Shown here: positions 11,395 to 55,943 of the stretch, one piece after another | Layout: every line of letters starts with the position of its first letter | How positions within the stretch are numbered: position 1 is the stretch's first letter | Source: a virus | Virus record (IMG/VR): IMGVR_UViG_3300043395_002359 | Location: 29,041-93,040 of that record | Strand: one strand, 5' to 3' | Length of the DNA stretch: 64,000 nt | The notes under the pieces: model-generated | Databases searched by the model: none | Told to the model about the DNA's origin: nothing | The model's input: the letters and a program-made list of their open reading frames with translations, nothing else | Position numbers and translations under genes: made by a program

Positions 11395-14300
11395 ATGACG
11401 ACACCTTCGCCTAGGAATCCAATCAGAATTGCCCGTGGTCTGTATGCAGACTTGTTGGCATCACTGAGCGATCTGAAAGAAGGTGAAATCTGTTTTGCAC
11501 AAGATCAAGACGCGCTGTATATAAAAGAGAATGGTGTATTAACCCTGACATCTGGCGGCGTCAGTGCAGCGCTAGTGATGGAAATCACTGGTATTGACCA
11601 AACCGGCGAACCAATGGGTCATGCCGACGCAACGGAAAGCGATATTTCATTCAACAGTGGTAACAGGATATTCGCTATTGCTCCATCTGGAGTTTCGTTT
11701 GATGTTTGGTGCAAAGGCATCAAGCATACATATCTAAGCGAACAGTCTGTTCAGATACCGGACACGACTGGATTGTATTATATCTATTTTGATGAGAATG
11801 GTGTTCTTCATTATCAGACAACATTCTTTGATCTGCAGAATCAGGCACCAACTGCTTATATTTACTGGAATGCCGCTACTGATCAGGCTGTTTATTTTGC
11901 TGACGAGCGTCACGGCATAGTTCTTGACTGGCAGACGCATGAATACTTGCATCGCACCCGTGGTGCTGCATTTGCGCGTGGATTTGAATTAACTGGTTAT
12001 ACGACTGTTGGCGGTGGTGCAGTTGCCGCTGACGCTCAGATCAGTGTTGAAAATGGTACATTTTACGACGAGGATATTCAGGTTGATGTAGTCCACTCAT
12101 CCACGCCGGCGCAGGATACGTGGCAGCAGGACTTGCAGGGCCCTGCATTGATTCCCGTCATGTGGAGGAACGGTACGTCGTGGAGTATTGATACGGCTAC
12201 CGATTTCCCGCTCAAGGCAGGCACCGCCAGGCCGCAGTATAACCTGGAAGGCATTGGTCAATCATGGACTGCCGTTGATATTGATGCAAACAAATACGTC
12301 AATATGTTCGTTATTGCTACGAACAATCTGAATCATCCGGTAATTGCTATTCTTGGCCAGAAACAACACAACAATGCGGCCGATGCTCAGACCGAGACTT
12401 GGAACACAATCAATCTGACTGGATTTCCATCGCTCGAGTTTCGCCCTTTATATCAGCTCACCTATCAGTGCGGCGCATACGGTAACTCGATCTCGGCAAG
12501 ACTCAGGTCTGCTGTTGATCTGAGGTATAACCAGATCGGTGCAAGTTCTAGCGGCGTTGGTGCAACTGGTCCTGTTGGTGCTACAGGAGCCATTGGCGCT
12601 ACCGGCGTTACTGGTGCTGGCGTTACAGGCGCTACTGGTGTAGATGGTCCGACTGGAGCAAGTGGTCCTATTGGACCTACCGGTCCGATCGGTATTACTG
12701 GCGCTACAGGCATTGCCGGTCCTACTGGGGCCAGCGGTCCTACTGGACCGATTGGCATTACTGGTGCCACTGGCGTGGTCGGCATCAGCGGAGCCACAGG
12801 TATTGAAGGTCCAAGCGGCCCAACTGGTGCCACTGGTCTCATCGGCCCCACTGGTGCGAGTGGCCCAACTGGTCCTATCGGCATCACTGGTGCAACCGGT
12901 GTAGTCGGCGTAACCGGACCAACCGGTGCCACTGGTGTCATTGGCATCAGTGGCGCTACGGGCATCCAAGGATCTACTGGTGCTACCGGAGCAACAGGTG
13001 TCATTGGCATCAGTGGCGCTACTGGCATTCAGGGCTCAACCGGTGCCACGGGCGCAACCGGGGTGGTCGGCGTCACTGGTGCAACTGGTGTAATCGGCAT
13101 TACCGGTCCAACTGGTCCCAGTGGTGTTACTGGCGCTACTGGAGTCATTGGTATCAGCGGTGCCACTGGCATTCAGGGCGAGCCTGGTACAACCGGCGCT
13201 ACTGGTGTTGTTGGCGTAACTGGCGCAACTGGCGTCACCGGTGCCACTGGCGTCATTGGTATCAGCGGTGCAACGGGCCCGAGTGGTCCCACTGGACCTA
13301 CGGGACCGATCGGTATTACCGGTGCGACTGGACCAATTGGCTCAACTGGTGCAACTGGACCACTGCCAGAGACTACTACATATACGGCCAGTTCAATCAC
13401 CACAGTCAGTGGTAACTATGTTTCTGGCAGCCTGGCCAGCATCCAAACATATGGCGATTTCAGTACTGGTAACTACTACAGGGTAGATGACTTAGACGCT
13501 ACAGCACCGGCCTACGAGGTGCGGGTTGGCTTCAGTGGTGTTACTCAATTTAATCGTATTGTATTCAACGTAAACTATACAAATACTTCAGCCCACACGA
13601 TTCGGGTTGAATTATATGACTACGTTAACTCTATATGGGTTGAATTTGGTAGATTTTCTGGACTTGCAACATGGACACAGTTCTTGCTTGGTGTTATTGA
13701 TAGCACGAACTTTATTTCTGGTGGCAATGCATCACTTCGTTTCTATCATCAGTCTAGTGGCAATGCGGTCCACCAGAGCCTGTATGACTACGTGGCACTG
13801 GAAGATTCACTCCAGGGTGGCCAGGGCCCTCGCGGTGCTACCGGTGTAACTGGTCAGGTAGGCGCGACTGGCGTTACTGGCGCAACTGGCGTTGCCGGCA
13901 TCAGTGCAAGCGGTCGTATCTGGTACTTCAGTCAGATCAATTCTGATATTACTGGCTACGAAAGCCTGGTACCTGATTCGCCGGATTCTGCGCCGCAGGA
14001 TGACATGACTGCTGTTACTACAAGTAGCAGTGGTGAGGTGTTGATTGAAGAGTTTGCTACCGTTGCTGGTGATCCTGGAATCGAAGAGATTCCCACTGGT
14101 GAATACGAGATCCGTTTTTGGAGCTATGTATCTAGCAACGATGGCGATACGCGTCTTGTATTCCGTGTTTACAGACGCAGTACTGGTGGTACCGAGACGG
14201 AACTGTTCTATGTTATTTCGCCAGAGATTAACGCCACTACTGCTAGCTACTACAATCAAATCATTGTAAATACTCAGCCAAACGCAATCGATCCCACTGA

Positions 14301-15570
14301 CAGGATCGTCACAAAAGTATACGCAAAAACAACTAGCACCAGCAATATTACTGCACACTTTGTTCATTCTGGCAATACACCCAGTTCCTGGAAGACTGCC
14401 ATTACTTTGGGCTATGTCGGCCCTCAGGGTGCCACAGGCCCGACCGGTGTACAAGGCCCGACCGGCCCGATTGGTATTACTGGGGCAACTGGTCCCGAGG
14501 GACCGACTGGCGCTACCGGCGTTGCTGGGCCGACGGGCGCAAGTGGTGTTATCGGCGTCAGTGGCGCAACTGGAGCGACTGGTGTTGTTGGTGTAAGTGG
14601 CGCTACTGGGGTTGTTGGCGTTTCCGGAGCTACCGGTGCTACTGGCGTTGCTGGTGGCACTGGAGCAACTGGTGCAACTGGTGTTGTTGGCGTATCTGGT
14701 GCTACCGGAGTGATTGGCGTTAGTGGTGCCACTGGCGCTACTGGAGTTGCTGGTATCGATGGAGCTACCGGTGCGACGGGCGTTGCTGGTGGGCCCGGTG
14801 CCACGGGCGCTACTGGCGTGGTCGGTGTTACTGGTGCTACGGGTGTTGACGGTGCTACGGGCGCTACGGGCGCTACGGGCGTGGTTGGTGTAACCGGTGC
14901 TACTGGCGTTCAGGGCGCTACCGGCATCCAAGGCGCTACCGGTCCCACTGGCGCAACGGGAGTGGTCGGTGATCCTGGCGCTACCGGAGCGACTGGTGCT
15001 ACCGGCGTCGTTGGTGTTACTGGTGCCACTGGCGTTACTGGTGATCCTGGCGCCACTGGTGCTACTGGTGTTGGAATCACCGGGGCAACTGGTGTTGTTG
15101 GCGTATCTGGTGCTACTGGTGCCACCGGCGCAACTGGCGTTGCAGGGATTGATGGACCAACTGGTGCAAGCGGTCCGACTGGTCCAACTGGTCCAACTGG
15201 TCCGACGGGACCCACCGGAGCTACCGGCGTAACCGGTGTTGCTGCGCCCAAAGCTATTAGCGTTCTATTCCCAACAAACGCAGAAAAGATTGCAATGTTC
15301 TATACGACATCTGCAATTACAATCAGCGCAATTCGCGTTGTTCTGTCTGGTACTACTCCTAGTGTTACGTTCTCAATCAGGCACGGCTCTGATTTCTCGT
15401 TAGCCGGTACGGAGGTTGTGACTGGCGGCACAACGACTACAAACACTACGACTGGTCAAGCGATAACCACATTCAACGCTGCCTCCATTGCCGCCAATAG
15501 TTTTGTTTGGCTGACGACGACTGCTGTTTCGGGCACTGTTAACTCAATTAATGTCTCCCTGCAATACTAA
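11395..15570 (+). CDS. Giant collagen-repeat tail fibre protein
   Basis: 1391 residues. N terminus ([20 protein letters not shown], then [18 protein letters not shown]) matches the virion-anchoring domain common at the start of phage fibres. A beta domain to residue ~385 is followed by three GXY collagen-like blocks: ~387-660, ~810-838 and ~1010-1283, dominated by GATG, GVTG and GPTG units. Two globular beta domains (~660-805, ~838-1008) and a C-terminal ~110-residue globular tip separate and cap them. The repeats should form trimeric triple-helix shafts joining globular heads. The stop overlaps the next ATG by one base. Confidence 0.88.
12550..13370 (+). repeat. Collagen-like GXY coding repeat, block 1
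   Basis: About 270 codons of Gly-X-Y, mainly GAT GVx and GPT G units, within the giant fibre gene. Nucleotide units of 9-18 bp recur with frequent synonymous changes, so the repeat is conserved at protein level more than at DNA level. Confidence 0.9.
14426..15245 (+). repeat. Collagen-like GXY coding repeat, block 3
   Basis: About 270 codons of Gly-X-Y in the C-terminal part of the giant fibre gene, rich in [13 protein letters not shown] units. A much shorter block (about 13826-13910) lies between the two long ones. Confidence 0.9.
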
Positions 15571-54984: not shown

Positions 54985-55046
54985 GCGCTTTCCCGAATCG
55001 AACGGGTTCTCTAGGCTATCTGCCTAACGTGTCCAACACCAAGCGC
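54985..55046 (-). pseudogene. Degenerate tRNA-like element, Leu-type
   Basis: 62 nt with a 6-bp acceptor-like stem GCGCTT/AAGCGC and a T arm CCCG TTCGATT CGGG. The order GGTG..TTGG..ACACGTTAGG recalls the D arm of tRNA-Leu with deletions, and the variable arm is missing. The anticodon loop lacks U33. It is probably a decayed tRNA-Leu rather than a working tRNA. Confidence 0.5.
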
Positions 55047-55093
55047 AGTGACCCTCCTGTTTGTGCGTCATCCAGCGTCCTGGAGCTAAGCAT

Positions 55094-55168
55094 GGAGGGT
55101 GTTGGTCGAGGAGGAGGTAGATGCGCCTTTAAGCCTGATTTGAAATCAAGCGGCTTCATGCCTCCTCC
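55094..55168 (+). ncRNA. Structured tRNA-Ser-like fragment with closing stem
   Basis: GGAGGGT and GGTCGAG recall a tRNA-Ser 5' half; an anticodon-like arm with loop TTTGAAA (UGA anticodon) and a GGC/GCC variable-arm-like hairpin follow, but the T arm and 3' acceptor are missing. Instead 55110-55117 (GGAGGAGG) pairs perfectly with 55161-55168 (CCTCCTCC), closing the element. Either a tRNA remnant or part of a larger structured RNA. Confidence 0.35.
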
Positions 55169-55219
55169 CCATTTCCGGTTATTACTGAGACATCACCTGC
55201 ACACCGGCAAACTCTGGTG

Positions 55220-55540
55220 ATGAATGATCCGATGCGCTTGCCAAATGGGTCCCCGGCGCAACCGTGGATCAGACGGGTGGAAGGTGATCAGCCCCCCAGC
55301 CTGGAATCCCAGGACTTAGGCCCGATGCGGCGACCGGAGATTTCCAGTCCATGCAGAGCGGGAACGCAAACCAGGAAAGGTAACCCACACCAACGGTGGA
55401 CCTCAGAACTGGCTGCACCTTGCCGACAGAGCAGCAAGGGTGGCTGGCAGAAGGACCGGGCATGACGGATGTAAAGACAGCCAACAGAGGCCCGGCCTCT
55501 GTCCTAACCAGTATACCAAGCCATGACAGGTATTTTCACA
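55220..55540. ncRNA. Hairpin-rich noncoding region
   Basis: About 320 bp, clearly GC-richer than its flanks, without a credible gene. Stable local hairpins include CCTGG/CCAGG (~55300), CCTTGC/GCAAGG (55418-55439) and ACAGAGGC/GCCTCTGT with a 3-nt loop (55484-55502). The strand of any transcript is unclear. I could not match it to RNase P, tmRNA or intron signatures. Confidence 0.4.
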
Positions 55541-55581
55541 AAAATACATATTTGTCAGAAAATGAAAAAGACACAAAAATA

Positions 55582-55702
55582 GACCAGACGATGTGGTTGA
55601 GCCCTTGTGAACGCCCCCAACTGGCTTGATAGTTGGGATAGTAAGAGCCACATCATCTGATCTATGGTTCTTAGATGGCGAGAATATGTGTCGCCGCCTA
55701 AG
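55582..55702. ncRNA. Structured RNA candidate with long nested stem-loops
   Basis: A 17-bp stem with three mismatch or wobble positions joins 55582-55598 and 55646-55662 and encloses a perfect 7-bp hairpin CCCAACT/AGTTGGG (55616-55637). A second compound hairpin follows: CTTAG/CTAAG (55670-55674, 55698-55702) around GGCGA/TCGCC. No ORF of coding character overlaps it. It lies just downstream of tRNA-Arg on the minus strand and could be co-transcribed with it. Confidence 0.5.
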
Positions 55703-55753
55703 GGATGTGTCTAAACCATGCAGGGCGTCTAACTGATGCCAGTATAACGGAAA

Positions 55754-55827
55754 CACCCCAGACAGGATTTGAACCTGTGGCCGACCGCTTAGAAGGCGGT
55801 TGCTCTAGTCCACTGAGCTACTGAGGC
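55754..55827 (-). tRNA. tRNA-Arg (anticodon UCU)
   Basis: 74 nt. Acceptor GCCTCAG/CTGGGGT (two G-U pairs), D arm GCTCAGTGGACTAGAGC, anticodon stem ACCGC/GCGGT with loop CTTCTAA giving UCU, T arm ACAGG TTCAAAT CCTGT, discriminator G, CCA not encoded. It reads AGA codons. Confidence 0.92.
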
Positions 55828-55863
55828 AAGGCGTCGCCAATAGCCACTCTTACCTCCCCGTCG

Positions 55864-55935
55864 GAAGGTGCAGGCATCGAACCTGCAGAGGCCAGTCCCC
55901 GTGGAACTGCCGGGAATTCCACCCGGAACGCACCC
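55864..55935 (-). pseudogene. Degenerate tRNA-like element
   Basis: The minus strand has a perfect T arm GCAGG TTCGATG CCTGC and an acceptor-3'-like ACCTTCC, but no matching 5' acceptor GGAAGGT and no normal anticodon stem (the CCCG/CGGG stem encloses a 9-nt loop). A TATACT -10-like hexamer lies just upstream. Probably a decayed or atypical tRNA. Confidence 0.35.
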
Positions 55936-55943
55936 ACAGTATA

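Follow-up and report, generated by a model that had tools for sequence, protein, structure and literature searches.

A minus-strand array of structured RNAs in a phage tRNA cluster includes a variant of the abiF RNA and may serve to neutralise AbiF-like toxins

The window analysed here, a stretch of 64,000 nucleotides, corresponds to positions 29041-93040 of a 93,040-base virus record (IMG/VR record IMGVR_UViG_3300043395_002359). The record carries genes for a terminase, a major capsid protein, a class II ribonucleotide reductase, ThyX, a DnaB-type helicase and a DNA ligase, and was on this account assigned to a tailed phage. Searches with Rfam models revealed glutamine riboswitches in several related contigs (Table 1); since these riboswitches are known from cyanophages (PMC9964418), the host of the phage is likely to be a cyanobacterium. 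At 11395-15570 the plus strand encodes a collagen-like protein of 1391 aa, probably a fibre, in which GATG-type triplet repeats form long tracts.

The region under study belongs to a tRNA cluster, in which the tRNAs and a neighbouring phosphoesterase gene lie on the same strand as the array described below (minus). An initial annotation had characterised 55047-55740 as GC-richer, hairpin-dense DNA without a credible gene, and this characterisation was borne out. The GC content is 53-58% over 55000-55750 and about 42-50% in the neighbouring windows, and both strands of 55040-55745 folded better than all 20 of 20 dinucleotide shuffles (z of -4.6 and -4.2). The three ORFs of the region (82, 117 and 77 aa) were rejected as genes, because their homologues keep paired bases, show single-base indels (in module D) and have modules swapped or absent. 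The stems named earlier are indeed present: module C has a long closing stem and one of 7 bp with a 3-nt loop, and unit X has a long stem enclosing an inner hairpin. The proposed extent was too narrow, as the feature reaches from about 54985 to 55936, beyond the tRNA-Arg. At the gathering score, Rfam gave no match in the region and its surroundings except the tRNA-Arg; matches to PVT1_6 and tRNA-Sec were below gathering and were rejected, as was a weak, broken match to tmRNA seen in L066 only (21.7 bits).

Table 1. Features of the array and its surroundings, with positions in the window unless a related locus is named
Feature	Position	Strand	Remarks
Module A, compact tRNA-like	54985..55052	-	11 homologues, 6 pairs with compensatory changes
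Module B, abiF-RNA variant	55051..55099	-	retains the outer stem, unpaired A, 3-bp stem and CAAA bulge
Module C, optional structured unit with two domains	55104..55229	-	4 homologues, both sides changed in 10 pairs
tRNA-Ser-like part of the initial annotation	inside module C
Module D, 95 nt, two hairpins and a long branched stem	55226..55320	-	13 homologues, double changes in 8 pairs, 0/500 shuffles
Module E, optional hairpin unit	55317..55368	-	L058 alone has a close copy
Module F, hairpin with conserved loop UGCUCUGUCG and length-variable helix	55366..55449	-	11 homologues, 7 pairs with double changes
Module G, hairpin, 8-bp covarying helix, conserved flanking and internal loops	55450..55503	-	presumed 5' end of array transcript
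-10-like box TATACT (extended, TGG-TATACT), 6 nt before G	55510..55515	-	spacing as in 10/11 arrays
Unit X, large stem 55580-55663, then U-runs 55565-55579, terminator-like	55563..55735	-	own -10-like box
-10-like box TATACT before unit X	55741..55746	-	from sequence
tRNA-Arg (UCU)	55753..55828	-
Module H, tRNA-like: T-arm and two stems, no D-arm	55833..55936	-	4 homologues, 5 pairs with double changes
-10-like box TATACT before H	55938..55943	-	same in L058, similar in L005
Glutamine riboswitches (RF01739, RF01704) in related phages	L002 10173-10237; L004 7882-7946; L006 7362-7493; L066 667-720	-; -; -; +

Relatives of the region were collected by a scan with the neighbouring phosphoesterase and part of the region (loci L002-L007 and L058) and by pattern scans, which added L061 and L065-L071 and later more than 200 further viral loci. 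The units were named A, B, C, D, E, F, G, X and H in window order. Homologous modules were found in dozens of viral contigs, usually in the order G-F-D-(C)-B-A-tRNA, in which modules are optional and sometimes swapped; the combinations include G-F-D-C-tRNA (L067), G-F-B-A (L006), H-B-A (L005), B-G (L061) and F>G>B>A (L325). The place of module C is taken by unrelated sequence in L002, L058 and L066, and the position of module H differs in L058, L007 and L005. A pattern search located module F in 20 contigs, and module G is also present in the isolates S-SZBM1, S-SRM01, S-RIM8, S-CREM1 and S-RIM32. No homologue of unit X was found in the compared loci, blastn found no window array in phage isolates, and the D-F part of the relative L067 was not found in plasmids. 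Seven pattern matches to module D in bacterial genomes were all attributed to chance. As judged by sequence comparison, the region is an array of structured RNAs, encoded on the minus strand within the tRNA cluster, and a mosaic of units gained and lost between phages. What had been taken for a single element is thus the G-to-A array (55503 to 54985), the separate unit X (about 55735-55563) and module H, all on the minus strand.

Homologues with compensatory changes, and no homologous protein, were found when the check proposed with the initial annotation was carried out. For module G with hand-defined stems, 7 of 10 pairs changed on both sides (29 cells), and pairing reached 98.6%, compared with a shuffled mean of 81% (0/500) and 25-52% for slid controls; as some stems were defined from the scored sequences, percentages of this kind are biased towards structure and the counts of double changes are the safer measure. 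The covariation of F, B and D behaves like that of G, and these four modules exceed nearly all shuffles and all slid controls. RNAalifold detected compensatory pairs in C, H and A. The compensatory base changes prove the folds.

The RNA is read from the minus strand, because the non-Watson-Crick pairs are G-U there and hardly ever A-C (G-U/A-C among paired cells: 22/3 in D, 17/2 in C, 19/0 in H and 14/0 in A). A TA...T box was observed in 10 of 11 environmental arrays, with 5-7 nt between its end and the start of module G, whereas the shuffled mean was 1.4 and none of 2000 shuffles came up to it; the sole array without the box, L061, has B upstream of G. The isolate S-CREM1 carries at this position TATAAATA, which resembles a T4 late promoter. 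A plus-strand RNA, initially guessed from A-rich loops, was rejected on the G-U counts and the promoter position. It is practically certain that these are structured minus-strand RNAs under selection.

Module B is the only module of the array that belongs to a known family. The earlier suggestion of a novel structured RNA was right, but the RNA is a modular array with one module of a described family. Module B is homologous to the abiF RNA (RF03085), with which, as exemplified by RCd22, it shares the outer stem, the unpaired A, the 3-bp stem and the CAAA bulge; in 13 members these elements paired in 117 of 117 cells with compensatory changes, and CAAA was invariant. Copies at the B position in L066 and L068, which have an identical 22-nt core (AAGCCUCUCAACGAUGCUCAAA), match the family fully (55.7 bits), the copy in L070 scored 30.6 bits, and the window copy scored 25.4 bits, below the gathering score of 37. 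All four copies lie 3' of D or C; in most arrays a tRNA or a tRNA-like unit follows B directly on the 3' side, and in the window B precedes a tRNA-like unit, unlike the antitoxin abiF RNA, which precedes a toxin gene. The conserved 11-nt apical loop of the abiF RNA is absent from the window copy, which has an extra helix instead, and L070 is intermediate. Module B is very probably derived from the abiF RNA. Because its score is below the Rfam cut-off and the apical loop is replaced, the window copy may have lost or changed AbiF binding.

AbiF is a HEPN RNase toxin with which bacteria defend themselves against phages, and the abiF RNA is the antitoxin that holds it in check. A type III toxin-antitoxin locus would have an AbiF (Abi_2) gene beside the RNA; no such gene adjoins module B, and Abi_2 (PF07751) is absent from the whole 93-kb record. 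PF07751 was likewise found in none of the 32 records of the first set, which included this record and 16 phage isolate records searched whole and some of which carry sister modules rather than the abiF RNA itself, and 117 of 118 further contigs with the abiF RNA, many of them fragments, were without Abi_2. Altogether, 149 of 150 records with the abiF RNA or sister modules lack AbiF. The exception, L183, has a normal toxin-antitoxin locus, in which an abiF RNA with a U-run lies just upstream of the Abi_2 start codon; since this positive was found, the Abi_2 search works.

Orphan abiF RNAs were found in the isolates S-CREM1, S-SZBM1 and S-SRM01, the mycobacteriophages Redno2, Bromden, GenevaB15 and Lolly9, Arthrobacter phage Mimi, Acinetobacter phage Acj61, and T7-like Aeromonas and Roseobacter phages. 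At a loose limit, blastn with a 37-nt query matched 74 phage records, of which 52 covered most of its length, and one plasmid (without annotation). The abiF core was found neither in E. coli genomes nor in 399 bacterial genomes of one order, which therefore offered no control set from bacteria. In the T7-like phages (L086 1501-1536, L087 1501-1536 and L089 1501-1531), the abiF RNA lies between head genes (connector/scaffold or scaffold/capsid) with no annotated tRNA nearby.

Adjacency of the abiF RNA to tRNA genes is seen in the viral contigs as well as in isolates from unrelated hosts. Of the 122 abiF cores in the viral contigs, 74 have a tRNA downstream on the same strand, in 73 cases within 30 nt as against 1.7 for random places, and the spacing from the core is nearly always 11-17 nt; after removal of redundancy by context clustering, 17 of 43 remained beside a tRNA, compared with about 1 in 70 expected. 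Further abiF RNAs precede tRNA-like minis that have a T-arm. Judging by the spacing, the RNA may be freed by an RNase P cut. An apparent enrichment of tRNA-Arg after the abiF RNA (48/74 raw, 5/17 non-redundant) was treated as lineage bias.

The decayed tRNA placed by the initial annotation at the edge of the region is module A, which is part of the feature and does have tRNA-like traits. It consists of an acceptor stem with a U.C mismatch at its tip, a T-arm with a TTCRA loop (diverged in two relatives), a very short D-arm, and the hairpin CGUUAGGCAGAUAGCCUAGAG in place of the 'anticodon' arm. A normal D-arm and a 7-nt anticodon loop with U33 are missing, A or C standing at position 33 in the aligned relatives. 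ARAGORN called several relatives as tRNA-Ile, tRNA-Met or tRNA-Val and made no call for the window copy. The hairpin CGUUAGGCANAUAGCCUAGAA, found as the 'anticodon arm' of A, recurs at the tip of G (L070, L169 and L224), as a free stem beside tRNAs (S-SZBM1, L194 and L218) and in a fourth setting in L216, L222 and L243; its presence on several scaffolds gives it the look of a protein-binding tag.

Neutralisation of the toxin in trans has been shown for a bacterial abiF RNA only, RCd22 of Clostridioides difficile, which neutralises AbiF in cis and in trans through direct binding and needs its stems to do so (PMC12373285); according to a review, the RNase is inhibited by nucleotides in the bulge of the RNA that AbiF binds (PMC12737573). 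The explanation towards which we lean, with modest confidence, is that the phage carries an array of RNAs which mimic antitoxins, neutralise AbiF-like toxins and are freed by tRNA processing. The array transcript would begin at module G, and RNase P together with 3' tRNA processing at the tRNA and tRNA-like units would free small RNAs; module B would then bind a host AbiF in trans and hold it inactive, so that abortive infection fails. That B or its relatives act as AbiF decoys is somewhat probable. More speculatively, the remaining modules, and with them the grafted CGUUAGGCANAUAGCCUAGAA hairpin, could play a like role towards other RNA-bound toxins, a decoy function of G, F, D, C and H being proposed by analogy; an anti-toxin role of the whole array is rather doubtful.

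The main rival to the decoy array is a single large ornate non-coding RNA in the style of GOLLD and ROOL, with optional domains and an assembled structure, in which the abiF-like hairpin is a domain with another use. GOLLD and ROOL are themselves large, ornate, bacterial and phage-linked RNAs (PMC12286853), the order G-F-D-(C)-B-A is kept in about 30 contigs with a lone promoter-like box at the 5' end, and an order that is mostly fixed is explained by a single composite RNA no less well than by an array of decoys. However, the covariance models of GOLLD and ROOL gave no match at E up to 5, the relatives of B score as abiF RNA, and the modules are separable: they are reordered in L061 and L325, and G and the abiF RNA each occur alone beside tRNAs in isolates. 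We consider the composite RNA a serious but not a likely alternative. Less probable still, and by a good deal, are leaders or spacers that aid the folding, protection or processing of the adjoining tRNAs, hairpins of the abiF type being placed in tRNA 5' leaders for this purpose or to recruit a host nuclease for processing: the close and regular spacing before tRNAs would suit them, whereas the abiF RNA also lies between protein genes in the T7-like phages and in Acj61, and unrelated phages share a near-identical 22-nt core, a constraint not expected of a spacer. A packaging, replication or recombination site acting at the DNA level, suggested in part by the initial annotation, would account for a hairpin-rich, variable stretch between gene blocks, but no evidence for it was found and we hold it to be very improbable, as the promoter placement and the fact that G-U outnumbers A-C on just one strand show that selection acts on an RNA read from the minus strand, and as the modules change genome context among phages. 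Functionless leftovers of decaying tRNA genes and toxin-antitoxin loci scarcely merit belief: A and H are tRNA-like yet apparently defective as tRNAs, but pairing is kept through many compensatory changes, promoters are kept, and the odd features of A recur in 11 relatives.

Pseudo-ToxI RNAs are phage mimics of a type III antitoxin RNA, and the antitoxin-mimic reading of the array shares with them the concept of a phage RNA imitating a host antitoxin; the toxin family and the RNA are different, and here the set is stable, widespread and tRNA-linked. In the lytic cyanophage S-CREM1, an orphan abiF RNA between tRNA genes was noted earlier as a single sRNA, without an anti-toxin role being proposed (PMC9964418), whereas the window holds a multi-module array with G, F and D. 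No description of the array was found in open-licence papers. Phage RNA counter-defence is little known compared with protein inhibitors. If the antitoxin-mimic reading is true, a large class of uncharted phage RNAs would gain a testable role, the sequences of G, F or D could serve as bait for new RNA-bound toxins, and the long-standing puzzle of the other stable RNAs in phage tRNA clusters would become testable; natural trans-acting inhibitors of AbiF would also be of technical interest, as AbiF has been reported as the ancestor of Cas13 (PMC12737573). As a tentative and rather unlikely generalisation, phage tRNA clusters might be anti-defence RNA islands, made up of exchangeable antitoxin mimics (abiF, G, F, D and C) and toxin-binding hairpins on tRNA bodies or other scaffolds, each released by tRNA-processing enzymes and directed against an RNA-bound toxin of its own, the majority of them still to be discovered.

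Several other tRNA-like elements were observed in phage tRNA clusters and beside abiF RNAs. S-RIM8 (L094 1350-1500) and S-RIM32 (L096 1560-1705) have, between tRNA-Thr and tRNA-Ala, a tRNA-like element with an odd anticodon arm and a conserved, apparently structured stretch of about 80 nt. Just past the abiF RNA in L113, L114, L116, L135, L168, L190 and L212 are tRNA-like starts (tctcagtagctcag...), incomplete according to ARAGORN and possibly parts of split or intron-bearing tRNA genes, and in L175 and L188 the abiF RNA is followed by mini tRNA-likes with an acceptor and a T-arm, apparently without an anticodon arm. The T4 RNAs rnaC and rnaD resemble the array as stable small RNAs in a phage tRNA cluster, directly beside tRNA-Arg; they were rejected as relatives, as they match neither the abiF RNA nor module G. 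At L317 1409-1672 (minus strand), T4 rnaC ends in a tRNA T-arm, GGTTCGAATCC.
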